DNA of 31,430 nt, taken from the IMG/VR virus record IMGVR_UViG_3300006641_000103, positions 1 through 31,430 of that record; one strand, 5' to 3'. The notes under the pieces were generated by a model that saw only the letters and a list, made by a program, of their open reading frames with translations, was not told the origin of the DNA and made no database searches. Shown here in pieces: positions 12,699 through 31,430 of this stretch. A program made the translations under genes and the position numbers. Origin of the DNA: a virus. How positions within the stretch are numbered: position 1 is the first letter of the stretch; each line of letters opens with the position of its first letter.

Positions 12699-12701
12699 GG
12701 G

Positions 12702-13301
12702 TTACTGTCCTCGGATGTAGTTGTTGCGGTAGGCCGCGAGGGCCACGCTGCGGCTGTCGCGCAGGACGTTGGCGTCGTCGGAGGCTTCCTCGCTGGCGTT
12801 GAGCTTGGCGAGGGAGTCGTTGATTTCCTTCTCGATCCACCCTTCTAGCACGTTCGAGCCAATTTGGCGCATCTGGTACTTCCCGCCAGCCACCCAGGCG
12901 ATGTAGTGCGCGAGGCGGTAAGGGAGCTCGGTGAACTCGAGGAGATAGACGATGTCCACCACGACGTCGTCGTCGAATGTGAACGTCTTGTCCGTGAGGT
13001 TGTACAGGAAGCCGTCGCGCTCGGTGACGTCGATGTCGGCGTCATCGCCGCTCGTGTCCACCTTCAGGCAGTTGTCCGGCAGCGGGATCTTGCTGTCGCT
13101 GTCGAGCGTGAGCGTGGTTTCCTTCTCGGTGTTGCAGTGCCAGCCCGACTCGAGAACGTCGCGCATGGTCTCGTCGTAGACCGCTTCCGCGGCCTCCGCG
13201 TCCGGAAGGCCGGACGAGAGCGACGACACGGGATCCTCACCGATGCACTTGAGGATGATGTTCACCGCGTCGAGCTTGCTGAATACGGTATTGGACGGCA
13301 T
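12702..13301 (-). CDS. tail tubular protein A, T7 gp11-like
   Basis: A 199-aa protein, nearly the T7 gp11 length (196 aa). Hallmarks are AVNIILKCIGEDPVSSL, then DAEAAEAVYDETMRDVLESGWHCNTE, then a KIPLPDNCLKVD strand and a C-terminal helix ending ALAAYRNNYIRGQ. Twelve copies form the adaptor ring between portal and nozzle. It lies 47 bases after the 97-aa gene and 3 bases before the gp12-like gene, in T7 order. Confidence 0.95.
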   Translation of the reverse strand: MPSNTVFSKLDAVNIILKCIGEDPVSSLSSGLPDAEAAEAVYDETMRDVLESGWHCNTEKETTLTLDSDSKIPLPDNCLKVDTSGDDADIDVTERDGFLYNLTDKTFTFDDDVVVDIVYLLEFTELPYRLAHYIAWVAGGKYQMRQIGSNVLEGWIEKEINDSLAKLNASEEASDDANVLRDSRSVALAAYRNNYIRGQ

Positions 13302-16207: not shown

Positions 16208-17014
16208 TCAGAACGCCGAGACGGCGATCCGCGCGCGGACCTGGGCGCGGTACGCCTGATCCACGTCGTACAGCTTGCGACCTTGCGCGTCGCGCTTGTT
16301 GATCGCCTCGGACTGCTCGAAGGCGCTCTGGAAGCCGACAGGCGTACCGCTGCCGTTGCCGCCGCCGAGTTGACCGAGAGGCTCGCCGTCCGCCGGGGCG
16401 AACTTCGCCTTCAGCACATCCAGCGCCGCCGACCACGTCTTCTCGTTGGCGAGTTGCGCGTTGAACGCAGCGACCTCTTCCTTCGAGAGCTCCTTGCCGG
16501 CGCGCTCCATGATGTGCTTCAGGACGTCTTCGCCGCCGACGTGCTTTGCGCTGCGCTCACGCGCGGCCGCTTGGGCCACTTTCGTGTTTGCGATGTAGCC
16601 GTCGACAACGTGCTTGGGGATCCCAGCCTTCTCGAGAGCTTGGTAATCGGCGTCCTCGATGGTGCCGGTGGTCGCCACCTTCTGGCCCAAGGTGTCCCAA
16701 TCGAGCCCTGCGCTGGCGACGGCAGACTCCGCCGGGTCCCCGCCCTTGGCGGGACCGGCCGGCGGGGCCTTGCCGCGGCCCTTCTCGAGCTCGGCGTAGG
16801 ACTTCGCCAGGGCCTCGTAGTTGGGACCCTTGTCCTTGTCGAAGAACTTCTCGGGGAGCCACTCGGGGCGGTCCCCGGGCTGCGAAGGGAGGACGAACCT
16901 CTGCGTGTTGGGGTCGAACTGTCCACCCTGCTTCTCGAAGAGCTCAACCATCCGCTGGTTGTACTCTGGCGTGCCCTTCGCGGGCATCGCATCCTGCTGT
17001 TGCTGCTGGCTCAT
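16208..17014 (-). CDS. scaffolding (capsid assembly) protein, T7 gp9-like
   Basis: A 268-aa acidic, helical protein in the gp9 position (T7 gp9 has 307 aa). Starts MSQQQQQDAMPAKGTPEYNQ. The stretch DRPEWLPEKFFDKDKGPNYE, followed by ALAKSYAELEKGRGK, is a signature of T7-like scaffolds; then a Pro/Ala/Gly linker and a helical C-terminus ending AYRAQVRARIAVSAF. It would guide procapsid assembly on the portal and leave before maturation. A large 336-base non-coding gap follows it, as if expression is separated from that of the capsid gene. Confidence 0.9.
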   Translation of the reverse strand: MSQQQQQDAMPAKGTPEYNQRMVELFEKQGGQFDPNTQRFVLPSQPGDRPEWLPEKFFDKDKGPNYEALAKSYAELEKGRGKAPPAGPAKGGDPAESAVASAGLDWDTLGQKVATTGTIEDADYQALEKAGIPKHVVDGYIANTKVAQAAARERSAKHVGGEDVLKHIMERAGKELSKEEVAAFNAQLANEKTWSAALDVLKAKFAPADGEPLGQLGGGNGSGTPVGFQSAFEQSEAINKRDAQGRKLYDVDQAYRAQVRARIAVSAF

Positions 17015-18540
17015 TAAGCCCCTGTCGGTTGCTGCATCGCCGCCTTACCGGCAGCGCCGAGTGCTTGTCCCGCGCCGGAGCTCAACGCTTCGGCTGCGAG
17101 TTGCTGCTGCTGTGCTTCTTGCACTTCAGCTTCGGTACGCACGGCATTCGGAAGGCCGATGCCGCTGAACGCGATCTGCAGTAGTTCGTTGAACTTGACG
17201 TACATCTCCGAGCCCGGCATTCCCTTCACGATCTCGCCAGCCTGGAGAACCTTGCGGACATCTTCCTGCCGGCCGAGGGCTTCCAAGCCAGTGGTGATCT
17301 GCGCCTCGATCATGCCTTTCGGCCACTCGGGGAGCTTCCGCTGCTTCTGCATCTGGTACGTGAGACGGGTGATGCGCCGCTTCTGCATTTCCGCCGCGAG
17401 GAGCGAATAGACCCCGCCAAGGGCCCCTTCGAGTTCCTCTGCGAGCATCCGCAGTTCGGTGGCGGTGACGCGCTCCGCGTCGCGGCGCATGTCGCCGACC
17501 ATGAGGAACGCCGCCGAGAGACCTGGGAGGAGCGCCGCGATGTCCTGCTGGACGATCTGCAGTCCCGCCACGTTCTCGAACTGGAGCATGTGGACGTCGT
17601 CTGGATTGCCCGGGATGACGTCGCCGTTGTTCGCCTTGGCGATGCGCTGACGCAGGTTGCCACCGGCAGCGTTCGGGCGCACGAGCGTGATGTGGCGCGC
17701 AGCCATCGCTGCGCCCTCGATCATCGACTTGCGGTAGACCTCGAGGGTCCTCAGGTCCGCAACGTGCTCTTCGACCTTACCGCGGCCGTAGTCCTCGCAC
17801 GGCACCGCCGCCCAGCGGATCGCGAAGACCGGAAGTTGATCTTGATTCGCGTACGTGCCGCGGGACTTCGGGACGGTTTTGCCTTCCAGCTGCTGCCAGG
17901 TCTTGTAGGCCCCGTCAGGCTGGCGCTTGTAGCAGGTAAAGAGCTCGACCTCGCTGCCCGCATCGGCGAGCTTCTTGGGGTCGACCATGCCCTGCGCTTC
18001 TTCGGGGAGCGCCAGCGGCGACAGCTTCTCTTCGGTGATGACCTCGACGAGGTTACCCGCGTGATCCCGCACGACCACGTACTGGTCAAGCCTGAACACC
18101 CGGATCGAGTTGTCCGGCAGCATGACCTCGAGCACGTTGCCCGTGACGATCAGAAGCTGAATGGACAGCGACGTGGCTTGACGCCAGTTGCGGTTCTCGA
18201 TCTCCGACATGACGAGCTTCTCGCTCATCGCCAAGCCGCGCTCGACTTCCGCCGAGGGGGCCATGGTCTTGGCCTTCAGGAGCAGGGAATTGGGGACCCG
18301 GTACCGGAAGCAACTCTGGCCGGCAGGCAGCAGCGCGTGCTGGAGGCGCGAGGACAGGTTGACGGTCGCTCGCGCGCCGAAGCCTTGGTAGGGCTCGGGA
18401 AGGCGTTGGCTGGAGTTGTGACCGACCGGAGGGAGCAGCGACGGGATCGTGAGGGCCGCGTACTCCCGCGCGCGACGCAGGAACGGATCGCGCCGCATAG
18501 CGAGGTTGTCGTACCGCGCCTTGAGGGACGTAGCGGCCAT
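17014..18540 (-). CDS. portal (head-tail connector), T7 gp8-like
   Basis: A 508-aa portal protein (T7 gp8 has 536). The N-terminus LKARYDNLAMRRDPFLRRAREYAALTIPSL and the GARATVNLSSRLQHALLPAG segment are typical. Further on are VLEVMLPDNSIRVFRLDQYVV, RWAAVPCEDYGRGKVEEHVADL and VTATELRMLAEELEGALGGVYS, all T7-like portal signatures. Twelve copies would form the ring at the unique capsid vertex for DNA packaging and tail attachment. The C-terminus is Gln/Ala-rich. It lies 3 bases after the gp7.3-like gene, and its stop shares a base with the scaffold ATG (TAATG). Confidence 0.95.
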   Translation of the reverse strand: MAATSLKARYDNLAMRRDPFLRRAREYAALTIPSLLPPVGHNSSQRLPEPYQGFGARATVNLSSRLQHALLPAGQSCFRYRVPNSLLLKAKTMAPSAEVERGLAMSEKLVMSEIENRNWRQATSLSIQLLIVTGNVLEVMLPDNSIRVFRLDQYVVVRDHAGNLVEVITEEKLSPLALPEEAQGMVDPKKLADAGSEVELFTCYKRQPDGAYKTWQQLEGKTVPKSRGTYANQDQLPVFAIRWAAVPCEDYGRGKVEEHVADLRTLEVYRKSMIEGAAMAARHITLVRPNAAGGNLRQRIAKANNGDVIPGNPDDVHMLQFENVAGLQIVQQDIAALLPGLSAAFLMVGDMRRDAERVTATELRMLAEELEGALGGVYSLLAAEMQKRRITRLTYQMQKQRKLPEWPKGMIEAQITTGLEALGRQEDVRKVLQAGEIVKGMPGSEMYVKFNELLQIAFSGIGLPNAVRTEAEVQEAQQQQLAAEALSSGAGQALGAAGKAAMQQPTGA

Positions 18541-21957: not shown

Positions 21958-22088
21958 CTCGCGCCCTTTCTTTTGTAACGCCGCCACTTTGAACGGACCC
22001 CTCCGCGCTTGAGAAACACCGACGCCGCGTAATGCTCATTTGCCGCGCCCGTGTAGTGCTCAGGGCGATCTCTTAGTGCGTGCAAGAC
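21957..22088 (-). CDS. possible short gene (about 43 aa) between polymerase and exonuclease
   Basis: The 115-base gap between the DNA polymerase stop and the exonuclease ATG holds an open frame ending KWRRYKRKGAR, whose stop overlaps the exonuclease start region. The best start is a TTG inside the polymerase end, with GGGGAGA upstream. The middle (GAANEHYAASVFLKRGG) resembles the N-terminal helix of some PD-(D/E)XK nuclease-like proteins, but no catalytic residues follow, so it could be a remnant. Support is weak: a non-ATG start and no clear homology. The start coordinate is approximate. Confidence 0.3.
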
Positions 22089-23974
22089 CAGTTCTCCCCA
22101 ATGTCGTAGGACCCGGAGAGCGGACACCGTACCCCGAGTTGCTTCCCTGCTTCTGTGATGGCCGCGGCGAACATCGGCCCGAGGGTCTCTGCGATCTCTC
22201 GCGTGCGACACTCGATCTGCACTTCGTCGTGGACGTTGAGGCAGTAGCCGTAGTCGTCGTCCGCCTCGTGCTTCCACCCCTTGCTGCACTTGAAGCGCTT
22301 GGAGGCCTCCCGGTGGAACAGGATCAACGCGAGCTTCATCACTACCGCGCCTCCGGACTGCAGCAGCGTGTTCAGCGCGGAGTGCGCGGAGCGGATCCGC
22401 AGGCGTCGACCGTCAAGGCCGGTGATCCAGCCCTGCGTCTTGACGCGCTCGAGGATCGCCGCCTTGAGGTCTCCGAGACCCGTGATGCCGGTCTCCAGCT
22501 TCGCTCGCGCCTCGGCCCCCAATTCGGACGGGGACCGCTTCTTCTGCGCGCCGCCTTTCCCCACTTTGAACAGGTGGGGCATCTTTTCGAGCGCGTATGT
22601 GTCGGCCTCGAGCGCGTCTTCGATGATGATGATCCCGAGCTTCGCGTCGCCGGCCCCGTAGATCATGGCGTAGATGACGCGCTTGCCGTTGTCCCGCTTG
22701 ACCATCGCAAGGATCCGGATGGTCCGCGTGTGGACGTCGGTTCCCTTCGCCTTGTCCCCCGTGACGACTGCCATGGAGTACGCCCCTTCGTCCCACCGGG
22801 CCAGGTAGTGGCCCAGCATCCGGAGCTCTAGCCCCTCGGCGTCCGCTCCGAGCAGCGTGTTCCAGCCGGCCCTTGGGATCCACATCTCGCGGAGCCTCAG
22901 GTCCTTCTTGTCCACGTTGGCGGTGTTCGGCCGGGAGTGCGTGCAGCGCCCGGTGACCGCCCCGTTGGAGTTGACGTAGCCGTGGACGCGACCGGTCTTC
23001 GGGTTGATGTGGTGCAACCACCCGCCGCCCGAGCCGTCCTTCTTCTTGGGCGCGGCGATCTGCTTCCACATCTTGTCCACGCGGGCGTAGCGCGCGAGGA
23101 GCTTCGCCTCGGGGTACTCGAGGTTCTTCAGGACCTCTTCGTCCGTCGCCGGAATCCCGCTCTCGGTGAACTTCTTGGGCTCCCAGCCGTACTTCGAGGT
23201 CAGCCGGGCGGCGATCTGCATCCCCGACCCGGGGTTGAACTCCTGCGTCTTGTACTTCGTCACCGGGACCCCGGCCTTGTAGCCCAGCTTGGCGTTGTCG
23301 CGTTTGGGCGTGATGATCTTGTCGACCACCTGAATGGGCGGGAAAGCCTCCTGCAGTTGGACCTGAAGCTGGGTCAGTTCCTGCTGGCACTCCGCGGCCA
23401 CCTCGATGGCGAGGCGCTCGTTGAGGCTCACCCCGTTCTCCATCTGCAGGGCGATGAGCTCGGCGAAGCGGTGCTCGATCTCAGGCGAGCGCCCCCAGGA
23501 CAGGACGTTACGCTTCGTCAACTCCTGCCACAGGAGGTACGTGGTGCGCGCATCGTCCACGCAGCGGTCCTCAAGGCGCTGACTCCACTGCGTGAAGTCG
23601 TCCGCCCCGGTGTCCTTCTTGATCCCGAATGACTCCCCGTAGGACTCGATGCTGTGTCCGCCGTTGCGCTCCGGGTTGAACAACCGGCCGAGCACCATGG
23701 TGTCGAAGCGGGACCTGTCGGGAAACGTGATGCCGTAGAGCTTCTCGATGGTCGGGAAGTCGTAGCCCACGCCGTTGTGAGCCACCACCCGGCCACCGGA
23801 GAGGGCGCAATCGTGGAGCCGCGCGAGGCCATGGAGGATGTGATCCTCGCCGCAGGGCTCTTCGTTGTAGCGCTTCACTTCTCCGGTGGCCGCGTCGATG
23901 ATCACCAGACACCACAGCTTGGTCACCTCACGCAGCAAGCCGTTGCCTTCGATGTCGAACACGAGCGTCTGCAT
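22073..23974 (-). CDS. DNA polymerase, family A, T7 gp5-like with 3'-5' exonuclease
   Basis: A 633-aa replicative polymerase. The N-terminal proofreading exonuclease begins LVFDIEGNG (Asp7, Glu9), followed by AHNGVGYDFP near 65-74 and VDDARTTYLL near 139-148. Polymerase motif A is GADAEGLELR (Asp378), motif B is RDNGKRVIYAMIYGAG (Lys431, Tyr435, equal to T7 Lys522 and Tyr526), and motif C is NVHDEVQ (Asp583). It ends NWSCTH, as T7 ends NWAICH. It is about 70 residues shorter than T7 gp5, and the loss lies between AFPPI (near 214) and FNPGS (near 250), where T7 carries its thioredoxin-binding domain. A different or no processivity partner is therefore likely. The start has a GGAGA site, 18 bases after the upstream stop. 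Confidence 0.95.
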   Translation of the reverse strand: MQTLVFDIEGNGLLREVTKLWCLVIIDAATGEVKRYNEEPCGEDHILHGLARLHDCALSGGRVVAHNGVGYDFPTIEKLYGITFPDRSRFDTMVLGRLFNPERNGGHSIESYGESFGIKKDTGADDFTQWSQRLEDRCVDDARTTYLLWQELTKRNVLSWGRSPEIEHRFAELIALQMENGVSLNERLAIEVAAECQQELTQLQVQLQEAFPPIQVVDKIITPKRDNAKLGYKAGVPVTKYKTQEFNPGSGMQIAARLTSKYGWEPKKFTESGIPATDEEVLKNLEYPEAKLLARYARVDKMWKQIAAPKKKDGSGGGWLHHINPKTGRVHGYVNSNGAVTGRCTHSRPNTANVDKKDLRLREMWIPRAGWNTLLGADAEGLELRMLGHYLARWDEGAYSMAVVTGDKAKGTDVHTRTIRILAMVKRDNGKRVIYAMIYGAGDAKLGIIIIEDALEADTYALEKMPHLFKVGKGGAQKKRSPSELGAEARAKLETGITGLGDLKAAILERVKTQGWITGLDGRRLRIRSAHSALNTLLQSGGAVVMKLALILFHREASKRFKCSKGWKHEADDDYGYCLNVHDEVQIECRTREIAETLGPMFAAAITEAGKQLGVRCPLSGSYDIGENWSCTH

Positions 23975-23992: not shown

Positions 23993-24334
23993 TTACGAAA
24001 CAAGCTGGCGAAAGTAGGCCGCGACCCTCTCGAGCTCCTTCGGTGATGCGTTGCTCTTGATGGAGTTGGCCCGGTGACTGATCACTACGACGTTGCCCTT
24101 CACGTACCCCTTGCGGCTGTCGATCCGGTCCAGCGTGGGCGACGCGGCGTGGGCCGACCGGCCCCCAGCGTTCCGCGCTAGGCGGATGCCGAGGGCCGGG
24201 CAGTAGGTCGGCAGGTGGAGGTCTTCTGCCGACAGGTCGAACTGGACTCCTGACTTCTTGGCGCGGTGCTTGGCGAGGGCGACGAGCCGCCGAAGGACAC
24301 TAGAAGGCGTCCGATAGCGCGGCTTTCGACGCAT
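23993..24334 (-). CDS. HNH-like phage endonuclease-related protein (113 aa)
   Basis: A 113-aa basic protein with the pattern YCPALGIRL at about 48-56, then SPTLDRIDSRKGYVKGN and VVVISHRAN in the second half. This CP-x-LG, DRID-x-x-KGY-x-x-GN, ISxxAN pattern is seen in many phage proteins annotated as HNH-type or intron-type endonucleases. A classical HNH His-His pair is less clear, so activity is uncertain. The ATG overlaps the primase-helicase end by 35 bases and has a GGGAGG site. Its place between primase-helicase and DNA polymerase is a usual site for free-standing homing endonucleases in T7-like phages. Family recognition is moderate; catalytic function is inferred. Confidence 0.7.
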   Translation of the reverse strand: MRRKPRYRTPSSVLRRLVALAKHRAKKSGVQFDLSAEDLHLPTYCPALGIRLARNAGGRSAHAASPTLDRIDSRKGYVKGNVVVISHRANSIKSNASPKELERVAAYFRQLVS

Positions 24335-25964
24335 CCATCAGCCTCCCGGTCTCCTTGTTGTAGGCCACCTCGCCGGCCACTCCGGTGTCGCCGAACTCCC
24401 GGTTCTTCAGCACGCGCATCGTGGAGACCAGCGGGTTGTCACCCTGCTGGTCCCGCTCGAGCGCGATGATGGTGTCGGGCAGTTGCTTCAGCGAGGCCGA
24501 TCCGCGGAGATCGTTCAGGGCCACCCTGCCGCCCTCTTCGTGCGACGTACCGTCCGCCTTGGAGAGGTGCGCGATGGCGAGAACGCCCACGCCAGTCTGC
24601 TCGATCAACTGCCGCAGCCTCGTCACGAGCCTGTCGATGTCCTTGCGCTCGCCCTCCTTCGAGGACTCCATGCCGGACACGACGATGCTCAAGTGGTCAA
24701 GCACGATGAAGTTCGCCTTCAGCGAGACGGCCAGATACCGCAGCTTGGACAGCAGGTTGTCCGAGTCGAGGGACCCGAAGTGCGAGTAGAAGAAGTTGCG
24801 CCCGTTGGCGACGGTCGCCTTACGGTGCTTTTCCCACTGCGCGCGCGTCAGGAGGTCGGGCTTCGCCCGCAGCCGGCCGAGCGCGATGTTCGCGTCGAGC
24901 GCGACATAGCCCTGCGCTGTCTTGGCCTGGTTCTCCTCGAGGAACACGTTACCGATGGTCAGCCCGTGCTTCACGTTGAGGTGGTAGCCGAGCTCCCGCA
25001 CCAGCGTGCTTTTGCCGATGCCGGTGCCGGCGGTGAAGAGGATGAGCTCCCCCTGCCGCAGGCCCCCGACCATCCGGTCCAGCCCGGGGTACGGCGTGCT
25101 GTACCCGGTCGGCGTCGCCGCCAGCATGGAGTCGAGGCTGATCTCCTCGCCGCTCACGATGCCGTCGGGGCGGTAGACCTTCGCCTCCCATACGGCAGTC
25201 GAGATGGCCTTGACGTCTCCCGCCTGCAGCAGCGCGTTGGCGTCCTTGGCCTCAAGGTGGACGACCTTTGCCTTCCCGGGGGACAAGAGCTCCGCTACGG
25301 CGACCGAGGCCTTACGGCCCGGCTCGTCGTTGTCGAACCAGATCACCACCTCTTCGTAGGTCTCCAGCCACTCGAGGTTCGCCTTGACCGACTTGACGGC
25401 TCCGTCCGCCCCGTTGGGGACCGACACGGCGGGCCACGTCAGGCCCATGGCCTGGGCCACGGACATCGCGTCGATCTCACCCTCGGTGATCACGATGCGA
25501 CGACCGCTCTCGCGCCAAAGGTTGGCACCGAAGAGGCACTTGCCGATGGCCTTGCCGTCCCCCAGGACGGTGAACTTCTTGTCTGCGTCGCGCAGCTTCT
25601 GGGCGATCAGGTTGCCCTTCGCGTCGTAGTACGGCGCGATCTGGACGGGCTTCTCTTCGCGGCCGAAGGTGCCGACGGCGTAGCCGTACTTCTTGCACGT
25701 CTCCTCGCGGAGGCCGCGGGCGTTGAGTGCCTTGATGCGGCCACTAAGGAATTCGCCACGGCCTCCTCGGTCCTGATCCGCAGGTACTTTCCGAGTTCCA
25801 GCAGGTACGCCTTCCGCAGCCCCATGTTCCATTTGTTCCTTCGAGAAATGACCCCCGCACGAGAAGCAGTGGCCATGGCCGTCGTCGTACACCGCGCAGG
25901 CGTCCGAGGAATCGCACGCGATGCACGGCCCCTTGTGCAGCAGTTCGGAGCTCCCCTCGATCAT
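24300..25964 (-). CDS. DNA primase-helicase, T7 gp4-type
   Basis: A 554-aa fusion of primase and replicative helicase, close in length to T7 gp4 (566 aa). The N-terminal zinc-binding domain has Cys14, Cys17, Cys33 and Cys36. The Toprim primase core follows, with ITEGEID (Glu161) and WFDNDEP (Asp211, Asp213). The RecA-like helicase has Walker A GTGIGKST at 313-320 (Lys318, the same number as in T7) and Walker B FIVLDH (Asp423). The C-terminal region MRVLKNREFGDTGVAG is also typical. As a hexameric ring the protein would unwind the fork and prime lagging-strand synthesis. The start chosen is the ATG overlapping the upstream stop; the frame stays open further upstream but without homology. An acidic end (SDAF) resembles the T7 gp4 tail that touches the polymerase. 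Confidence 0.95.
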   Translation of the reverse strand: MIEGSSELLHKGPCIACDSSDACAVYDDGHGHCFSCGGHFSKEQMEHGAAEGVPAGTRKVPADQDRGGRGEFLSGRIKALNARGLREETCKKYGYAVGTFGREEKPVQIAPYYDAKGNLIAQKLRDADKKFTVLGDGKAIGKCLFGANLWRESGRRIVITEGEIDAMSVAQAMGLTWPAVSVPNGADGAVKSVKANLEWLETYEEVVIWFDNDEPGRKASVAVAELLSPGKAKVVHLEAKDANALLQAGDVKAISTAVWEAKVYRPDGIVSGEEISLDSMLAATPTGYSTPYPGLDRMVGGLRQGELILFTAGTGIGKSTLVRELGYHLNVKHGLTIGNVFLEENQAKTAQGYVALDANIALGRLRAKPDLLTRAQWEKHRKATVANGRNFFYSHFGSLDSDNLLSKLRYLAVSLKANFIVLDHLSIVVSGMESSKEGERKDIDRLVTRLRQLIEQTGVGVLAIAHLSKADGTSHEEGGRVALNDLRGSASLKQLPDTIIALERDQQGDNPLVSTMRVLKNREFGDTGVAGEVAYNKETGRLMDASKAALSDAF

Positions 25965-26152
25965 CGCGACGCCGCGGTGCGCTGGGCGATCTTGAGGACG
26001 CGCGGCGGCATCTGCGCCGGCACGACGCGCCCGTTGCGGAGCCGACGGCGGAACTCCCACTGCTTCGTGTCGCTACGCAGGAGGCACACGCCCTCCTCGA
26101 GCGAGACCACCATGTCGCACTCGAAGTGTTTGGCTTGCTGGGTCTTCTTCAT
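25961..26152 (-). CDS. small basic hypothetical protein (63 aa)
   Basis: A 63-aa basic protein beginning MKKTQQAKHFECDMVVSLEE and ending KIAQRTAASR. The ATG follows a CGGAGACG site and promoter copy 3. It contains two Cys residues (12 and 23) not arranged as a zinc site, and many Arg in the second half (FRRRLRNGR). Its stop overlaps the primase-helicase ATG (ATGA), so the two are probably translationally coupled. Family not recognised. Confidence 0.65.
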   Translation of the reverse strand: MKKTQQAKHFECDMVVSLEEGVCLLRSDTKQWEFRRRLRNGRVVPAQMPPRVLKIAQRTAASR

Positions 26153-26166
26153 GTCGTCTCCGTGTT

Positions 26167-26184
26167 GTGTAGGTGTCCCTGTAC
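26167..26184 (-). promoter_or_regulatory. candidate phage RNA polymerase promoter, copy 3
   Basis: The minus strand reads GTACAGGGACACCTACAC, 14 bases before the ATG of the 63-aa gene that leads into primase-helicase. It lies in a true intergenic gap and is preceded by a short CCGCG/CGCGG inverted repeat. It is nearly identical to the other two copies. Promoter function is inferred. Confidence 0.6.
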
Positions 26185-26210
26185 GTGAACCGCGCAGGGA
26201 CCTCGCGGGA

Positions 26211-26474
26211 CTAGCTGTACTGCTCTGCGAACTCACGAACCTCGGCGGCGGTCATGCGCCGCAGGAACGCCGGGGTTCCGGACCCAACCCACGCGCCCTT
26301 CTGGTTGAAATCCATGTACTCCTGGGCGTCCTCTCGCGAGAGCCCTTGGCGCATCAGGGTTCGGACGACTTTCTCTTCGTCGTAGAGGACCACGGGTTCC
26401 ATCCCGTGGCGCTCCACGATCCCTACGATGGCGCTGTCGAAGCCGTCCATCGTCAGGATCGCGTGGTCGTCCAC
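26211..26474 (-). CDS. hypothetical acidic protein (87 aa)
   Basis: An 87-aa protein beginning (GTG) VDDHAILTMDGFDSAIVGI and ending REFAEQYS. The GTG shares its G with the upstream TAG, and AAGAAGGCGG serves as ribosome binding site inside the upstream gene. The middle part (EEKVVRTLMRQGLSREDAQEY) looks like two helices, and GAWVGSGTPAFLRRM is a conserved-looking loop. No enzymatic motif is recognised. Short proteins of this look are common between resolvase and primase genes in T7-like phages, but I cannot name a function. It is followed by a 58-base gap with a weak hairpin and promoter copy 3. Confidence 0.65.
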   Translation of the reverse strand: MDDHAILTMDGFDSAIVGIVERHGMEPVVLYDEEKVVRTLMRQGLSREDAQEYMDFNQKGAWVGSGTPAFLRRMTAAEVREFAEQYS

Positions 26475-26740
26475 TAAGCCGCCTTCTTCAGCAGGCCGAG
26501 CTCGTTGTACGGGTCGTGCAGCACGTAGCGCACGTAGCGCTGGCCGGTGGCGTCCTTCTTGTGGACGCTCTCGATGGTGACGCCGTGCGTCTTGGGGTGG
26601 ACTTGCTCCTTGATGTCGAGGACCCGCCGCGGGAGGTAGCGGCACTTGTAGAGCGCCGCGGCCTCGACGCCGCTGATCGAGCCGACGCGCTTGAGGTGGT
26701 CCCAGATCTGGGACGACTGAGGGGTGAGCTTGAGGTTCAT
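26474..26740 (-). CDS. putative winged-helix DNA-binding protein (88 aa)
   Basis: An 88-aa protein beginning MNLKLTPQSSQIWDHLKRVG. The segment QIWDHLKRVGSISGVEAAAL, followed by YLPRRVLDIKEQ, reads as a helix-turn-helix, and the next strand pair (GVTIESVHKKD, RYVRYVLHD) could be the wing. Small HTH proteins of this type are frequent in phage replication regions, but the specific role is unknown. AAGGAG precedes the ATG, which overlaps the RusA stop (ATGA). Its TAG stop overlaps the GTG of the next gene. The fold is an inference from pattern only. Confidence 0.7.
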   Translation of the reverse strand: MNLKLTPQSSQIWDHLKRVGSISGVEAAALYKCRYLPRRVLDIKEQVHPKTHGVTIESVHKKDATGQRYVRYVLHDPYNELGLLKKAA

Positions 26741-27186
26741 GTGGCTCCTTGGAGTTGAACGTATTCGACGCGCGTACCGGGCTCTTCGCCCGGTTCCACG
26801 AAACGCTTGAAGGCCACGAGGCCCACGACCTGGCGGTCGTCCTGCCACGCGACGCCGGCCTTCGTGATGGCGTCGAGCGGTGCCTTCACGAGGTTGTCGA
26901 TGTCGCCGGAGGGCGTGTCGAACTTGGACGCCTTGGGGCGCGGGAGCAGTTGCTCCACGAAGGCGACGCACGGAGCGTCGAACTTCGCAGGCGACTCCTT
27001 CGCCAGCCGGGCGGCGGCGTCCTTCATCCAGTTCGAGTAGGTCTTCGCGTAGTACGTGCCCCACTTGGAAACGCGGGGGCGGCTTGCTGGGACGGGCGTC
27101 AGCGCCACGAGCGCGGAGAGGACCGTAACCCTCCCCAGCGCCCGCAGCGCATCCCGCCAGGACCGCGCGAGATTAGAAATCCCCAC
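26737..27186 (-). CDS. RusA-family Holliday junction resolvase
   Basis: A 149-aa protein with the RusA active site. SGDIDNLVK supplies Asp95, Asp97 and Lys101, and WQDDRQVV supplies Asp116. The 21-residue distance between Asp95 and Asp116 equals that between Asp70 and Asp91 of E. coli RusA. An upstream TPVPASRPRVSK segment fits the usual RusA N-terminal PVPxxRPR strand. RusA enzymes are dimers that resolve four-way DNA junctions. In T7 the equivalent slot, between gp2.5 and primase-helicase, is held by endonuclease I (gp3), an unrelated fold, so this looks like a functional replacement. The start is uncertain: the GTG at 27186 overlaps the upstream gene, and a later GTG nearer the PVP strand would remove about 20 odd N-terminal residues. 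Its stop overlaps the next ATG. Confidence 0.85.
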   Translation of the reverse strand: MGISNLARSWRDALRALGRVTVLSALVALTPVPASRPRVSKWGTYYAKTYSNWMKDAAARLAKESPAKFDAPCVAFVEQLLPRPKASKFDTPSGDIDNLVKAPLDAITKAGVAWQDDRQVVGLVAFKRFVEPGEEPGTRVEYVQLQGAT

Positions 27187-27751
27187 CCGCGCCCTTGCTG
27201 CCGCCGTTACCCGCGGGCTTCTCGGCCGGCGTGTCGTCGCCGTCGTCCTCGTCGCCGAAGGCGTCCGAGTAGTCCGGGCGGTTGCGGCGCTCGAGGAGCT
27301 TCACCGCGCGCATCTGCAGGGAGATGCCCGCGTTCTTGCCCTCCTCGTAGGGCAGCATCGCGAAGGCGACCTTGATGACGTCGCCGGAGCGCGGGGCCCG
27401 GTCGGCCGGGAGCTCGCCCTCAACGCCCTTCTCGAGGCACTGAGGGGCGAACTTGGACTTGAAGGTCACGAGCTTCTTGCCCTTGAACTCTTCCTTCTGC
27501 TTCCCGTCCTTGTCCATCTTGTCGTCGCCGTCCTTCACGGGCGACTCTGTCTTCTTCTTGCCGCGCGCCTTCTCGTGCGCCGCCTCGATCTTCGCGAGGA
27601 ACTCCGTGACGCCGTCCTGCGCCGGATCGAAGACGCCGGTCACCTTGTACTTGTCATCGCTGTACTTCTTGCCGGAGTCCGGCTTCGAGAGCCACGCGAA
27701 GGCGGCGACGCAGGGGACGCTGACGATGGTCGGCAGTTTCTCTTTTGCCAT
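27173..27751 (-). CDS. single-stranded DNA-binding protein, T7 gp2.5-like
   Basis: A 192-aa protein resembling T7 gp2.5 (232 aa), which coats single-stranded DNA at the replication fork and contacts the polymerase and the primase-helicase through an acidic C-terminal tail. The beta-rich core includes AFAWLSKPD near the N-terminus and GDVIKVAFAMLPYEEGKNAGISL near residues 125-145. A Lys/Glu-rich linker at about 65-95 is probably flexible. The tail has an acidic stretch (GDEDDGDD) and ends in an aromatic residue (GGDF), the gp2.5 hallmark, although here the acidic stretch is separated from the final Phe by a Gly-rich run. AAGGAGA precedes the ATG. It is first in the replication block, overlapping the resolvase gene by 14 bases. 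Confidence 0.85.
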   Translation of the reverse strand: MAKEKLPTIVSVPCVAAFAWLSKPDSGKKYSDDKYKVTGVFDPAQDGVTEFLAKIEAAHEKARGKKKTESPVKDGDDKMDKDGKQKEEFKGKKLVTFKSKFAPQCLEKGVEGELPADRAPRSGDVIKVAFAMLPYEEGKNAGISLQMRAVKLLERRNRPDYSDAFGDEDDGDDTPAEKPAGNGGSKGAGGDF

Positions 27752-27771
27752 GGTGCTGTCTTTCTCCTTGG

Positions 27772-28107
27772 TTAGTGCGTGAACCCCGACGGCGGACTGC
27801 CGGCCGGGAGGTTGCTACCCCAGAGCTCGGCGAAGGTGGTGACCCACCGCCGGACCTTGGAGTCGTGGTACTGCGTGATGGGCGCTGGGTGTTCGGCCGC
27901 GTCCTTGGCCATTGCCGCGAGGGCGTCTGACGGAAGTCCGTGCGCCTGCGCGAGGTGTGCCGCGAAGCGCATCGTCCCGGTGAGCAGGATCGCCGCGTGC
28001 CGCGGGTCGTTGAGACTCAAGCCCCGCTCATGCGCCACTCCGTAGATCTGGCAGATGAACCTGGCGAGAATCTCGTCGGTGATGCTGACTTTCTCGATGA
28101 CTTTCAT
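27772..28107 (-). CDS. conserved-looking hypothetical protein (111 aa)
   Basis: A 111-aa soluble, mostly helical protein beginning MKVIEKVSITDEILARF. Its ATG follows an AGGAGAG site and a candidate phage promoter. The central part (ILLTGTMRFAAHLAQAHGLP) is a plausible amphipathic helix pair, and the C-terminus is Gly/Ser/Pro-rich and probably disordered. No catalytic motif is visible. It is the first gene after the RNA polymerase, where T7 places its small class II genes (1.1 to 1.8) that adjust host metabolism. It is 20 bases ahead of the ssDNA-binding protein gene and probably shares its transcript. Family not recognised. Confidence 0.7.
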   Translation of the reverse strand: MKVIEKVSITDEILARFICQIYGVAHERGLSLNDPRHAAILLTGTMRFAAHLAQAHGLPSDALAAMAKDAAEHPAPITQYHDSKVRRWVTTFAELWGSNLPAGSPPSGFTH

Positions 28108-28115
28108 GCTCTCCT

Positions 28116-28133
28116 GTCTAGGTGTCGCTGTAC
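28116..28133 (-). promoter_or_regulatory. candidate phage RNA polymerase promoter, copy 2
   Basis: The minus strand reads GTACAGCGACACCTAGAC, starting at the last base of the RNA polymerase stop codon and followed by AGGAGAG and the ATG of the next gene. In T7, phage promoters also lie directly after gene 1. It matches the other two copies at 15 or 16 of 18 positions. Promoter function is inferred. Confidence 0.6.
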
Positions 28134-29806
28134 TACGAGAAGAAATAAGGGCTGGCGAGAACCTGTGTCACGTCCAGCGGGCCTTGCTTCGGGCGCGGAG
28201 GGAGCTCCACGTCCGGCGCGTACTCACGCACCTGTCGCTCAAACTCCTCGAGCCAGTCGCCCGAGTAGAGCTCCACGAAGGTCTCGCGGAGGATCCTCCC
28301 AAGGGCTTCCACGTCGCACGCATGGGTCCCGTACGAGTCGTGGATGAGGGCGAAGTGCCTGATCCCCTGCTCCTCTGCTGCGTTCACCGTGAGCGCAAGG
28401 TGCGCAGCGTCTAGGGAATGGATCACGTTGGGCGCGGCTGCGAGAGCCTGGTCCTTGATCTCCAGCCCCTGCGACGGCTGCTCGTCCCACAGCGCGACCG
28501 ACCCGTACAGGGTCCACACCCGGCCGGAAGACAGCCGGTAGTACGACTGCTGGACCGTCATCCCGGCCGGCGTCGTCCACCGCAGCGGGAGCCCCCGCTC
28601 CCCGAGGGCGCGCGCGACGCCCTGCAAGTACCCCATGATCTCCTTCGCGGACACCACGGTGGACTCCAGCGCGGCAACGATGGCGTCCTTCAGGTACCCC
28701 GCGTTCTGCCTGCGGGATCCCGTCAGGCCCTCGCAGTGCTTGTCAGCGATCAACTGGTCCCTGATGCCCGCCTGCGTGACGCCGTAGGGCGTGGTCATCA
28801 CGGCCCGCTTGACGGTCGTGCGGCTCACGTTGCCGGCCCAGGCCACCGCTTCGGCCACGCCATGCGCTGCGTCCGCAGCCACAATGCGCTTCACCTCCTC
28901 GGCAACCTCGGTGTACAAGTCCTGCCGCGCGCCGGTGTCCATCAGGTTCGTGGCACGGCCACCGATGGGGTCCCGGCCGAGGGCCGAGAGGTGCTGCACG
29001 CCGGAACAGGTCGCGTCGATGTTGACCGGGACATGGCAGGGGTACAGCGCGGGGCCGTAGCGGTCGGCCATGACGTACTCCTGCGCCAAAGCGAGGAAGA
29101 CCCACGGGGAGTCGAACGCGTCCTGCGCCCACCACCGGTACTCCAGCGGGTCCGCCACGGACTTCGCGATGTGGCTGTCGTTGGCGCGGACCCACTCGAC
29201 CCGGGCCTTGAAGGGCAGCTTGTCCTGCCCCGCCGCGTTTGCGAGGGCGATCATCAGCCACTGCATCCCCGCCAGGGTGGGCGGCTTGCCGTCGGCGAAC
29301 ATGAGGAGGCCCTTGGCGAGGTCATCCCCCTGCGGGTTCAGGTCCTGCGGCAGCGGGTACACCCGGCCCCGGAAGTCGAGGGCGTGCGGGAAGTAGATCG
29401 TGGGCTGGTCCTTGAGCTCCAGCGCGAGGGCGATCTTCCGCCCCGCCGCCTCCCGCTTCCCCCGACGCCGCGCGTTGTCTCCGTGGAGACGAGCGAGCTC
29501 GCGCTTGTGCTCGGAGCGCTCGTCGGCGGACATGGCGTTCCACGTCTCGTCCGACAGTGCCGGGGGAAGCGGGACGTCGTCGGCCTGGGGGAGGCCGGCG
29601 AGATTGTCCCCGTTGTAGAACGCCTTCGACATGACGTCCGCGATGAACGGATTGATCCGCCACGGCGTGCGCTGCACGGTGTTCACCGCGTGCAACATCG
29701 TGTCGCTGACGGGGTCCTCGAGAGCAGTCGTGTGGCGGTGCATCCCGGTCTTCACGAGCTTCATCTTCAGCGAGTAGTAGCCACCTGCGTATTGCACTTT
29801 GGACAT
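28133..29806 (-). CDS. T7-type RNA polymerase, catalytic subunit (split gene, C-half)
   Basis: A 557-aa protein carrying all the catalytic elements of single-subunit T7 RNA polymerase. Visible motifs are DFRGRVY at 144-150 (the T7 DxxGR motif), motif A NIDATCSGVQH with Asp264, motif B KRAVMTTPYG with Lys333, Arg334 and Tyr341, motif C LIHDSYGT with Asp490, and the conserved end ASPYFFS. It opens MSKVQYAGGYYSLKMKL, matching T7 GGGYWANGRRPLAL, which follows directly after the point where the N-half stops. The ATG has its own GAGAGGAGA site, so it is translated separately. Together the halves give 853 aa against 883 in T7. The segment 421-449, before LEIKDQALAAAPN, occupies the place of the T7 promoter-specificity loop. 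The frame is open further upstream, but homology and the ribosome binding site both fix this start. Confidence 0.9.
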   Translation of the reverse strand: MSKVQYAGGYYSLKMKLVKTGMHRHTTALEDPVSDTMLHAVNTVQRTPWRINPFIADVMSKAFYNGDNLAGLPQADDVPLPPALSDETWNAMSADERSEHKRELARLHGDNARRRGKREAAGRKIALALELKDQPTIYFPHALDFRGRVYPLPQDLNPQGDDLAKGLLMFADGKPPTLAGMQWLMIALANAAGQDKLPFKARVEWVRANDSHIAKSVADPLEYRWWAQDAFDSPWVFLALAQEYVMADRYGPALYPCHVPVNIDATCSGVQHLSALGRDPIGGRATNLMDTGARQDLYTEVAEEVKRIVAADAAHGVAEAVAWAGNVSRTTVKRAVMTTPYGVTQAGIRDQLIADKHCEGLTGSRRQNAGYLKDAIVAALESTVVSAKEIMGYLQGVARALGERGLPLRWTTPAGMTVQQSYYRLSSGRVWTLYGSVALWDEQPSQGLEIKDQALAAAPNVIHSLDAAHLALTVNAAEEQGIRHFALIHDSYGTHACDVEALGRILRETFVELYSGDWLEEFERQVREYAPDVELPPRPKQGPLDVTQVLASPYFFS

Positions 29807-29889
29807 CAGGTCTCCTCTCGAGGTACGTATGGGGTTCGCGTGCCGGTGGGCTCCGGTCTGCCGTGATTCACGCGAGGTCCTGCAACCTG

Positions 29890-30081
29890 CTAGGCGCTCA
29901 CCATCGACATCGCCACCCCGAGGGACGGAACGCTGATCCGCTTGTGGATCTTGCGGAACGGGAGGGGCTGCTCGGGCTTGTCGCCGTCGCACTTCAGCAC
30001 CTGCACGTTGCCACCGAAGCGGTCGCGGATGACGGCCAGGACGGGGGCCTTGCGGGGCTGGCGGTGTTTCGGGTGCTTCAT
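29890..30081 (-). CDS. small basic protein inside the RNA polymerase split (63 aa)
   Basis: A 63-aa frame beginning MKHPKHRQPRKAPVLAVIRD, with a textbook GAGGAGA site 7 bases before the ATG and the candidate phage promoter just upstream. The N-terminus is strongly basic (six Lys, Arg or His in the first ten residues), which suggests nucleic acid binding. The C-terminus ends in a hydrophobic, serine-containing tail. There is no membrane segment long enough to span a bilayer. The family is not recognised. It is the last small gene before the catalytic RNA polymerase subunit, from which it is separated by 83 bases. Confidence 0.7.
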   Translation of the reverse strand: MKHPKHRQPRKAPVLAVIRDRFGGNVQVLKCDGDKPEQPLPFRKIHKRISVPSLGVAMSMVSA

Positions 30082-30092
30082 GTGTTCTCCTC

Positions 30093-30110
30093 GTGTAGGT
30101 GTTACTGTAC
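30093..30110 (-). promoter_or_regulatory. candidate phage RNA polymerase promoter, copy 1
   Basis: The minus strand reads GTACAGTAACACCTACAC, followed by GAGGAGA and the ATG of the 63-aa gene. It shares a GTACAGNRACACCTASAC core with copies at 28116-28133 and 26167-26184. The ACACCTA core resembles the GACACTATA core of the SP6 promoter, and a G/A-rich start region follows. It lies within the RNA polymerase split, upstream of the catalytic half. The shared motif is seen directly; promoter activity is inferred. Confidence 0.55.
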
Positions 30111-30272
30111 AGCCAGACGCAAGCGTGCGTACCGCTCGGCGCGCACCGGATCCACACCGACCCGCTGGGCCTCGGTCACCATGCTGCGGGGACAGACGGC
30201 GACCCCGGACTCCCGGGCGGTGACCAAAAGGGCCGACATCATGCGCCGAACGATGGACTCGAAGGGGCTCAT
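30102..30272 (-). CDS. small protein inside the RNA polymerase split (56 aa)
   Basis: A 56-aa frame starting MSPFESIVRRMMSALL and ending RYARLRLAVQ. Its ATG overlaps the TGA of the upstream 68-aa gene (ATGA), and a weak purine site (GCGAGG) precedes it. The middle segment SMVTEAQRVGVDPVRAERYA could form a short helix-turn-helix-like pair of helices, but this is only suggestive. The stop codon falls within the promoter-like motif at 30093-30110. No family is recognised. The gene call rests on coupling to its neighbour and on the tight gene packing. Confidence 0.55.
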   Translation of the reverse strand: MSPFESIVRRMMSALLVTARESGVAVCPRSMVTEAQRVGVDPVRAERYARLRLAVQ

Positions 30273-30475
30273 GCCAGCCTCGCGGCGATCTGCCGGAACA
30301 GCGTGCGGGCCACCGCGAGGTGGATCGTGAGACGCAGCGTCGCGGCGACTTCCGGATCTGCCGTCTCGGTAGCCTGGCGCGCCAGCTTCTCGGCCTCCTC
30401 ACGCCCCGCCTTCAGGGCCCCCTCCAGCGCATCCCACAGCGCATCCGGCGACTTCGCTTCGGTCTTCGGTTCCAT
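30269..30475 (-). CDS. small protein inside the RNA polymerase split (68 aa)
   Basis: A 68-aa frame starting MEPKTEAKSPDALWDALEG and ending RQIAARLA. The ATG is preceded by a strong AGAGGAGA site at good spacing, and that site falls in the last codons of the polymerase N-half, so the two genes overlap by 77 bases in different frames. The stop overlaps the next ATG (ATGA), pointing to translational coupling. The composition is helical, rich in Ala, Glu and Lys with regular hydrophobics, without a signal peptide or obvious membrane segment. The family is not recognised. Its position between the halves of one enzyme makes a role with that enzyme possible but unproven. Confidence 0.65.
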   Translation of the reverse strand: MEPKTEAKSPDALWDALEGALKAGREEAEKLARQATETADPEVAATLRLTIHLAVARTLFRQIAARLA

Positions 30476-31289
30476 CCCGTTTCTCCTCTGGTGCAACGCG
30501 CGTCCAATCCCGCGGCTCGACCAACATCGGCACGAGCAACGGCCGGCGCATCTCGTTGTAGGTGTGACGTGCGGTGACCCATTCACGCGCCTCGTCGGTG
30601 AGCGCCACGACGCGCTCGGTCTTGTACCGTCCTCCGCTTACCTGCCCCGGCATGGTGATCGTGAACCACTGCGGGGCGGCTTCGGCGATCACGTTGACCA
30701 CCTTGATCCCCAGGTGGAGCCTCATGTCCCTCGGCCAGTCCAACTTCTCGTACTGTTCCGACTTCTTTGCCCACTTGCGAAAGGCGCGCTCGTTCACCTC
30801 AGGCGTGAGCTCCCGCATCAGCCGCCAGTAGTTCGGCGTACCGCCCTGCTGCGACTCCCGCGTCCGCTTGCCCTGCGCCTTGCGCCACAGTTCGAACTCC
30901 CGCTGCGTCTGGGCGTTACGGCCAATCTCCAGTGCCACAGAGCGCAGCGGCCTCGCGTGAACCTCGCGCGTCGCCAGCATCGCGCGCACTCCGATCACCG
31001 CCAGGACGTCGGGCTCGACGCACAGGATGGGGAACCACCAGCGCTCCTCGCGACCGCGCTTGGGGTTGCCGTAGGCCGCGTGCGCTTCCTTCGCGGCCAC
31101 TTCCAGTGCCTTGTGCGCCGGACCGACGACGTGACGCATGATCTCCTGCCCCGGCTCGAGCTCGGCCAACTCCCGCCTCTCGCGCGAGCCGTCGTTGCGG
31201 TCCCGCATGAGGGACTCACGGTAGCGACGGACTCCGCGGTCCACCGCTGCGTGCTCCCATTCGATCTCTTGGTGGACTGAGGTGGACAT
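30399..31289 (-). CDS. T7-type RNA polymerase, N-terminal subunit (split gene, N-half)
   Basis: A 296-aa protein matching the N-terminal domain of single-subunit T7 RNA polymerase, the part that binds the promoter and RNA. Residues about 10-265 follow the T7 order: an N-terminal helical region, a WRLMRELTPEVNERAF stretch, a KWAKKSEQYEKLDW segment, and a final MLVEPRDWTRV at 255-265 that matches T7 VVPPKPWTGI. Homology stops there. The last 30 or so residues (EEKRDGTEDRSEVAGC onward) are low-complexity and overlap the next gene in another frame. All catalytic motifs (DxxGR, A, B, C) are absent and are found in the separate gene at 28133-29806. The start ATG has an AAGGAGA ribosome binding site. 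The family match is firm. Function as a separate subunit is inferred from the second half having its own start and ribosome binding site. Confidence 0.85.
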   Translation of the reverse strand: MSTSVHQEIEWEHAAVDRGVRRYRESLMRDRNDGSRERRELAELEPGQEIMRHVVGPAHKALEVAAKEAHAAYGNPKRGREERWWFPILCVEPDVLAVIGVRAMLATREVHARPLRSVALEIGRNAQTQREFELWRKAQGKRTRESQQGGTPNYWRLMRELTPEVNERAFRKWAKKSEQYEKLDWPRDMRLHLGIKVVNVIAEAAPQWFTITMPGQVSGGRYKTERVVALTDEAREWVTARHTYNEMRRPLLVPMLVEPRDWTRVAPEEKRDGTEDRSEVAGCAVGCAGGGPEGGA

Positions 31290-31326
31290 TAGTCTCCTTG
31301 GTTGGCCGGAGTGGAAGAACGGCGGA

Positions 31327-31428
31327 TCATTCGGGCTTGTCGTATTGCGCGTCTAAAACTGCGATGACGTTAGGTAGGTTCATCGCATCAGCCATTGCAT
31401 CGTCCAAGCAGACTGCGCGGACCTCAAC
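31327..31428 (-). CDS. 3' end of an unidentified early gene (partial)
   Basis: An open frame enters from beyond the right edge and ends in TGA 37 bases before the RNA polymerase N-terminal gene. The last 33 residues are visible and end in AVLDAQYDKPE. In T7 the genes just before the RNA polymerase gene encode early host-takeover proteins, so this is probably the last gene of that early block. The other two frames are closed by stops within this stretch. The protein is not recognisable from this fragment. Confidence 0.6.
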   Translation of the reverse strand, partial: VEVRAVCLDDAMADAMNLPNVIAVLDAQYDKPE

Positions 31429-31430
31429 CC

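Follow-up and report, generated by a model that had tools for sequence, protein, structure and literature searches.

The window, that is the whole stretch of 31,430 nucleotides analysed here (IMG/VR virus record IMGVR_UViG_3300006641_000103), carries two genes on its minus strand which combined span a T7-type RNA polymerase (RNAP) without loss. The N-subunit gene (30399–31289, 296 amino acids) corresponds to the N-terminal domain (NTD) of T7 RNAP, comprising the promoter-binding part and the hinge (T7 ~1–281), while the C-subunit gene (28133–29806, 557 amino acids) covers the remaining C-linker region, thumb, palm and fingers with the catalytic residues (T7 284–883). Each has its own start signals, an ATG at 31289 preceded by a Shine-Dalgarno-like AAGGAG (31294–31299, minus strand) for the N-half and an ATG at 29806 preceded by a Shine-Dalgarno-like GAGAGGAGA (29811–29819, minus strand) for the C-half.

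Both products are recognised by the profiles of the single-chain enzyme. The N-half matches Pfam RPOL_N (E 1.7e-8) and the C-half RNA_pol (E 4e-102), and phrog_414 is shared between them, with residues 3–265 of the N-half on profile positions 3–247 (E 7e-22) and residues 6–557 of the C-half on positions 248–816 (E 2e-174). Positions 247 and 248 are adjacent, therefore no sequence is lost at the break, which in alignment with T7 RNAP falls at T7 281|282–284. The end of the N-half (residues 266–296) lacks homology, and its coding sequence runs into the next open reading frame (ORF). Modelled with AF2 (mean pLDDT 86.7), the N-half superimposes on T7 RNAP residues 29–269 with Z 17.1 and rmsd 4.1 over 226 aligned residues. 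Its identity came from Pfam, PHROGs and fold; a sequence search of the PDB with the N-half gave chance matches only. In the C-half, alignment locates residues that we take to be the equivalents of DX2GR, Asp537, Arg627/Lys631, Tyr639 and His811/Asp812 (T7 numbering). Of the features that define the T7-type family, homology to the NTD and to the polymerase domain is present, as are the catalytic Asp/Asp, Lys, Tyr and His motifs, while the whole enzyme in a single polypeptide is replaced by two ORFs. Judged from its sequence, this layout is a divergent architecture inside the T7-type family, with homology not lost.

An earlier, sequence-only reading had described separate halves of a T7-type polymerase in a T7-like phage, with almost nothing lost between them, a C-half with its own ATG and ribosome-binding site, and all catalytic residues in that half. 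These observations were correct, and the interpretation as two separately encoded halves is supported. Its placement of the break near the end of the NTD holds in so far as the break lies just past that domain, in the C-linker region; at T7 281/284 it is later than the residue ~270 proposed.

The surroundings are those of a T7-like phage. A PHROGs scan of 20 window proteins, 4 of which were unmatched, returned T7-like genes, all on the minus strand: a gp2.5-like ssDNA-binding protein (27173–27751), RusA, primase/helicase (24300–26060), DNA polymerase (22073–23974), exonuclease, head-tail adaptor/connector (17014–18540), head assembly, two tail proteins (phrog_457 and phrog_446, 10401–13301), internal virion, fibre and holin functions. 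Replication and morphogenesis genes thus share one strand, as expected of Autographiviridae/Autographivirales. The 592-nt gap between the two polymerase genes holds three small ORFs, likewise on the minus strand. The first (30269–30475, 68 amino acids) has only weak, below-cut-off Pfam and PHROG matches, the second (30102–30272, 56 amino acids) overlaps the preceding ORF by ATGA and has no PHROG match, and the third (29890–30081, 63 amino acids) has its own Shine-Dalgarno-like GAGGAG with no Pfam or PHROG match.

The same break, for which a search of other genomes had been advised, occurs in 22 further dereplicated loci in IMG/VR and GTDB, making 23 with the window's own (as L001), so the phenomenon is larger than the earlier reading supposed. 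Their sources are metagenomes as well as the genomes of Devosia, Asaia, Variovorax and Rhizobacter isolates. Contig L001 (IMG/VR 3300006917) is 100% identical to the window over 24391–31427 and may stem from a related assembly; the 22 other loci, with an identical break, decisively rule against an artefact, and the assembly error named as a possible refutation is unlikely. Before counting, 14 of 258 loci were dropped because they had no N-half, no C-half match or no sufficiently long C-half in a single frame. These include L217–L219, with a different break (~411/416), and L104, whose frame is broken several times; L163, a frame-broken copy, was merged into the single-chain L158. Two further two-chain loci (L064 and L086) break ~17 residues later, lie outside the clade described below and are excluded from the 23. 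Loci were picked by likeness to the window, with at most 80 per scan, and 23 of 198 is consequently not a prevalence.

All 23 split loci group in a single clade of 30 rows (UFBoot 93, SH-aLRT 86) that requires at least four split/fused changes on the tree. The split is dispensable, since seven clade members encode a single chain; these carry linkers of 8–28 residues at the break; outside the clade, the linker is exactly 5 residues in 142 of 166 single-chain loci. Identity to the window is 38–59% for the C-half (28 relatives, clade) and 16–41% for the N-half (39 relatives). Cultured members were sought by tblastn with four clade C-chains against 50,697 phage records; among the best 15–40 of more than 2,500 matches for each, the best identity was 35–38%, with these matches only partly placed on the tree. 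Six plasmid records matched, at 37% identity at best.

Pairs of closely related loci show purifying selection on both genes, with dN/dS of 0.045–0.185 for N and 0.053–0.153 for C (8 close pairs out of 13 run; the window is without a close relative for this test). The equivalents of Asp537, Arg627, Lys631, Tyr639, His811 and Asp812 are invariant in 29 clade rows, comprising the 23 split loci (window included) and 6 single-chain members. A regular-expression check missed one motif in each of L180, L187 and L192, which we take as spelling variants, since these three rows are part of the alignment in which no catalytic residue varies.

Single-chain Autographiviridae RNAPs (T7 gp1, LUZ100, Mycobacterium phage jiawei) belong to the same phrog_414 with the same RPOL_N and RNA_pol domains, and share with the window the catalytic residues, the NTD fold and T7-like gene neighbours. 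However, they form one chain of 797–883 amino acids (10 reference phages aligned) where the window has two genes. A two-chain T7-type polymerase is described in phage N4 (Schitoviridae), whose RNAPII consists of gp15 and gp16 and has a shortened NTD (PMC4496689). The earlier reading placed the N4 split elsewhere, and rightly so: the gp15/gp16 break lies at C-half profile position 174/180 (T7 ~452/458), ~170 residues beyond the window's break, which precedes profile position 1, and gp15 is unbroken at the window's cut point. Thumb and DX2GR reside in gp15 in N4 and in the C-chain in the window, which lacks the N4-type break between DX2GR and motif A; in contrast to the truncated N4 domain, the window NTD is full, matching T7 29–269. 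Among the top matches listed from open PMC literature, which leaves subscription journals mostly outside, no two-chain T7-type RNAP besides the N4 type was found.

The two genes are intact and complementary in coverage, the break is shared through the clade, and purifying selection acts on both genes in relatives. That the products are two working chains which assemble into one polymerase is, from the genes, very probable; their assembly, activity and promoter reading are what we infer. The fuller explanation, a two-subunit T7-type polymerase whose split may be kept for the placement of a promoter and cargo between the halves, is also considered likely, at somewhat lower confidence. Separate dosage of the two chains as the reason for keeping the split has partial support and roughly balanced prospects, leaning slightly against.

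Drift or a tolerated cargo site might also maintain the break. Under the latter alternative a real and functional split is retained for cargo rather than dosage, the loop being a tolerated landing site for small genes such as antirepressors. The distance from N stop to C ATG ranges from -4 to 1685 nt over the 23 split loci and the cargo is unrelated across them, with Bro-N antirepressors in L113, L187 and L203; in engineering work, T7 RNAP withstood cuts at surface-exposed regions (PMC4299498). Four loci, however, have no cargo at all, the two genes overlapping in ATGA fashion, and the spacer of L100, where the halves lie in one frame separated by a single TAA, scarcely exceeds a promoter-like element. 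The cargo explanation is a serious contender, albeit on the doubtful side.

Such elements recur at gene borders. In the window, GTACAGTAACACCTA lies between the halves (30096–30110), a second copy, GTACAGCGACACCTA, at the C-subunit stop codon (28119–28133) and a third, GTACAGGGACACCTA, immediately upstream of an ATG (26170–26184), all on the minus strand; these 3 coding-strand sites compare with 0 in 100 shuffles. They presumably resemble the promoter cores of T7, T3 and SP6. Of the 23 loci, 15 have a 16-mer in the spacer that is repeated just past the C stop (p<0.05 each, uncorrected, dinucleotide shuffles). The remaining eight fail, including the window (p 0.10) and four loci with short or overlapping junctions (L098, L184, L192 and L194), and a promoter between the halves is therefore no universal companion of the split. 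Across the records of 12 relatives the elements occur 4–9 times on the coding strand, which holds 72 of 80 matches in total, against 0–1 per strand for reversed-pattern controls, the counting patterns being derived from the sites themselves. None of the 20 families that a general repeat finder listed for the window was a promoter-like element, and a host sigma-70 promoter/terminator scan of 28000–31430 found 0 promoter-like sites and 1 terminator-like site versus 1.5 expected. We predict with reasonable confidence that the elements are promoters of the two-chain polymerase. Since promoter function is predicted from sequence and some elements contain a short inverted repeat spotted by eye (AAGC-GAGTT-GCTT within GAAGCGAGTTGCTTT), operators, RNA-processing sites or terminators form an alternative, though an unlikely one given the sense-strand bias and the siting at gene borders.

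Prophages in bacterial genomes often decay, and some relatives do sit in such genomes. An insertion could have broken the polymerase gene and left dying halves, the phage or prophage depending on something else, and the N-half is indeed far less conserved than the C-half. This is very improbable. Purifying selection in relatives speaks largely against it, dN/dS lying well under 1 for N and C alike among closely related split loci. Both ORFs are also open behind their own start signals, and across the split loci the break is identical and the catalytic residues are invariant.

Equally improbable is a single protein after all, joined by intron removal, intein trans-splicing or programmed frameshifting, for which the in-frame halves of L100 and a conceivable slip in the four overlapping loci might be cited; spacers so divergent, or absent, are explained by no one splicing mechanism, and splicing as a refutation is unlikely with 22 other loci sharing the break. 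A group I/II intron was rejected, the spacer being absent or unrelated elsewhere and known Rfam families (E up to 5) yielding nothing above chance in 28000–31430, where the sole match was a weak CRISPR-repeat (E 3.4). A split intein was likewise rejected: no Pfam intein family matched either chain (E up to 1), the window C-chain has 7 residues before GGY, and 20 of 23 C-chains have only 3–9 (nearest ATG), too few for a split-intein half. Frameshifting would need more than one slip, because in the window the C frame does not open until ~30175 (L001 frame), after the N frame has already ended at 30399.

For the two-subunit polymerase with its split retained, we propose that an ancestral gene was cut just past the hinge linking the promoter-binding NTD to the catalytic domain (T7 281|284), and that the two chains, translated separately, would assemble non-covalently to start at phage promoters. 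The cut would then have been retained as a site that can take cargo genes and a promoter of the phage itself, placing the catalytic chain under self-amplifying transcription from that promoter, while the promoter-binding chain, supplied separately, could limit the number of active enzymes. In L100 and L204 such an element also lies upstream of the N-chain gene, so that both chains may be amplified there. In LUZ100 an integrase lies near the RNAP gene, which is transcribed from a phage-specific promoter (PMC10134795). Integrases likewise lie upstream in L185 and L204, as in these temperate-featured T7-like phages; LUZ100 differs in having one chain with the promoter ahead of its gene, whereas in the window the promoter-like element is between the halves.

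A more speculative extension, which we consider rather improbable, would make the N-chain a detachable, sigma-like initiation subunit outside the amplifying loop, capping phage transcription and hence influencing the lysis-lysogeny choice. It would join the catalytic chain for promoter recognition and, as it has no peptide link past the hinge, may leave or be exchanged after promoter escape. The clade, on this reading, would repeatedly re-cut and re-join the enzyme, as at the T7 ~281 break, in the long-linker re-fusions and in L217–L219.

T7 RNAP is the mainstay of in vitro transcription and the classic example of a polymerase made of one chain. As initiation gives way to elongation, its NTD swings around the C-linker hinge, and the stiffness of the linker influences abortive RNA (PMC3961267). 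A natural enzyme lacking the covalent connection shortly after this hinge would allow the hinge question to be addressed directly. Engineers have split T7 RNAP at 36 sites in five seams, the co-expressed pieces being active, cuts at 67, 179 and 601 being among them (PMC4299498). Those splits are artificial; the two genes of the window suggest a natural counterpart, which may be nature's own version. For temperate T7-like phages, a promoter within the former polymerase gene would offer a possible control circuit.

The T7-type RNA polymerase (RNAP) of this phage is encoded by two separate genes on the minus strand, an N-chain gene at 31289-30399 (296 aa) and a C-chain gene at 29806-28133 (557 aa), each with its own ATG and Shine-Dalgarno-like site. 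The two open reading frames described in the sequence-only reading are thus present, with complementary coverage of phrog_414, the PHROG profile of phage RNA polymerase (3-247 by the N-chain, 248-816 by the C-chain), and with Pfam matches to RPOL_N (1.7e-8) and RNA_pol (4e-102). Alignment with T7 and nine further single-chain phage polymerases places the break between T7 residue 281 and the conserved GGY motif (284-286), near the end of the T7 N-terminal domain as had been proposed, but beyond the residue of about 270 given at that time.

The genome is T7-like by comparison of 20 window proteins with PHROGs, which left four without a match and otherwise returned gp2.5-like SSB, RusA, primase/helicase, DNA polymerase, exonuclease, endonuclease VII, connector, head assembly, two tail proteins, internal virion proteins, fibre and holin. 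The record is an IMG/VR contig of 31,430 bp, and a second contig of the same phage, L001, is identical to it over 24391-31427. L001 ends 3 bases short of the window's end (31427-31430), which may mark a genome end or a variable site directly ahead of the N-chain gene. A 95-nt direct repeat (239-333 and 860-954, 88% alike) overlaps the holin ORF (16-408) with its first copy and lies at the end of the fibre gene (931-2328) with its second.

The AF2 model of the N-chain (mean pLDDT 86.7, pTM 0.79) superposes 226 residues on T7 RNAP 29-269 (Z 17.1, rmsd 4.1), and the top 43 rows of its fold search are T7 or mitochondrial RNAP, the following row having a Z of 7.0. The C-chain model has a mean pLDDT of 90.4 and a pTM of 0.86, with confidence low at the break in both chains (block means of 53-63 over N-chain 251-296 and a mean of 31 over C-chain 1-10). 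In T7 RNAP the hinge spans 258-266 with P266 as hinge proline, and the C-linker region is drawn as 251-296 (PMC3961267). P266 aligns with N-chain P250, which is invariant across a 40-row alignment. Judged by alignment and by those published limits, the hinge is kept on the N-chain, with the cut about 15 residues past it, within the C-linker region.

The known two-chain member is N4 RNAPII, with 24 heterodimers described among >500 of its homologs and tied to virion-RNAP phages (PMC4496689). As the sequence-only reading noted, N4 is split elsewhere; the junction of its two chains maps to C-half profile 174/180 (T7 ~452/458), and gp15 spans the window's break point without interruption. Engineered T7 RNAP works when cut at any of 36 sites, grouped in five seams, with 67, 179 and 601 named among them (PMC4299498). 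Among the papers listed in searches of the open PMC literature, none described a two-chain RNAP of the window's architecture.

Relatives were collected by C-half alignment scans (at least 80 IMG/VR and at least 80 GTDB loci) and by scans with split C-halves, which added further IMG/VR loci. Profiles of both halves, run on the plus frames of 258 loci, matched in one frame in 214 and in different frames only in 37; the N-half was absent in seven, six of which start at a contig end, while the seventh, L007, is the window's region read in the opposite orientation. Length filtering left 244 loci and dereplication 198, with 173 single-chain and 25 two-chain, counts that reflect selection by likeness to the window and not prevalence. 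The window's break point recurs in 23 of the 25, L001 included. Among these are contigs of Devosia enhydra, Asaia sp. W19, Variovorax sp. J22G73, Rhizobacter sp. Root1221 and a Xylophilus MAG, taken as presumed prophages. Apart from the split RNAP, whose N frame is 315 aa long, the Rhizobacter genome has a single-chain RNAP frame (837 aa) elsewhere. Whole-genome searches with the N-half, capped in each genome, covered 299 genomes from the family of the Variovorax locus, where the four matches listed have open frames of 309-332 aa in three and 964 aa in one, and 385 genomes from the class of the Devosia locus, where the four listed comprise one of 267 aa, two of 854 and 892 aa and a 93-aa fragment; three of the four split cases had been known before.

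Thirteen pairs were run for dN/dS. Eight closer pairs gave 0.045-0.185 (N) and 0.053-0.153 (C), four distant pairs 0.25-0.53 (N) and 0.24-0.29 (C) at high dS, and one was without informative difference. These ratios show that both chains are maintained in the tested relatives, the window itself having no close relative.

On an IQ-TREE tree of 48 C-halves the 23 split loci fall within a 30-row clade (UFBoot 93, SH-aLRT 86), seven members of which are single-chain, and the state changes at least four times (bootstrap range 4-5). Measured by script from a conserved W to GGY, the linker is 8, 8, 8, 10, 13, 24 and 28 residues in those seven; of the 166 single-chain loci outside the clade, 142 have exactly 5 (4 not measurable). 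One fission, then re-fusions leaving scars, fits these data well. Several fissions within a lineage whose linker had loosened are also possible, as linkers are also lengthened in the sister rows L101 (8 by eye) and L226 (12 by script), both single-chain. The broken gene is unlikely to be explained in general by an intron or split intein, because the spacers of the 23 loci differ in length (-4 to 1685 nt from N stop to C ATG, four with an ATGA-type overlap) and content, and 20 C-chains start, counting the nearest ATG, just 3-9 residues ahead of GGY (18-29 in L098, L184 and L189).

Other breaks were also seen. In L217:4153-6752, L218:3753-6352 and L219:282-2905, of the same clade and next to L180 (FastTree 0.955), the window's break is closed by a 14-residue linker and a new one lies at C-half profile 132/137 (T7 ~411/416), with TAG followed by ATG 11 nt on; since the DNA of L217 is not that of L219, a single assembly error cannot account for it. 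L064:3-2434 and L086:1893-4360, two differing contigs, form a separate two-chain lineage in which the break is near T7 300 and stop and start codons overlap as TAATG. T7 record MG833025 (1712-4253) has two annotated RNA polymerase features beneath a match in two pieces, perhaps a laboratory construct.

The window's 592-nt spacer holds three small ORFs (68, 56 and 63 aa) with no match above cut-off in Pfam or PHROGs, and an Rfam scan of the RNAP locus gave a single chance-level match. Elsewhere the spacer carries small ORFs, a Bro-N antirepressor gene (L113:4218-4898, L187:753-1604 and L203:794-1651, the last a near relative folded into L201 at dereplication) or barely anything, that of L100 being scarcely more than a promoter-like element. 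A 16-mer from between the halves is repeated just past the C stop in 15 of the 23 loci (p<0.05 each, uncorrected, 300 dinucleotide shuffles); the window (p 0.10), L098, L179 (= L018), L184, L185, L192, L194 and L195 failed this test. The pattern GTACAGNRACACCTA, derived from the sites themselves, occurs three times in the window, each time on the coding strand: once between the halves, once at the C stop and once ahead of another gene; 100 shuffles gave none. The 44 kb of sister phage L018 contain one match to a relaxed form of the pattern, and it too lies between the halves. In the records of 12 relatives 72 of 80 elements lie on the RNAP-gene strand (RNAP-strand/opposite 5/0, 8/0, 7/0, 9/0, 9/0, 7/1, 4/2, 4/2, 4/0, 5/3, 5/0 and 5/0), with 0-1 per strand for a reversed-pattern control. 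Of the flanks scanned ahead of the N-chain gene, those of L100 and L204 contain an element and those of L102, L113, L188, L202, L207, L209 and L257 do not. The elements look like T7-type promoters, with an apparent resemblance to the T7, T3 and SP6 promoter cores. A search of 28000-31430 for host sigma-70 sites found none; in L185 and L204 integrases are encoded upstream of the N-chain.

Most likely, the two chains would assemble into one T7-type enzyme. What the data show directly is the gene structure, its conservation, selection in the relatives and the recurrence of the elements; assembly, promoter activity and dosage control are inferences. In LUZ100 the RNAP gene is preceded by a phage-specific promoter, for which amplification of RNAP and a tie to lysogeny have been proposed (PMC10134795), whereas in the window's clade the element is often within the former RNAP gene. 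Acting as a promoter from that position, it may allow the catalytic chain to be amplified separately from the promoter-binding chain, and so provide a control of dosage.
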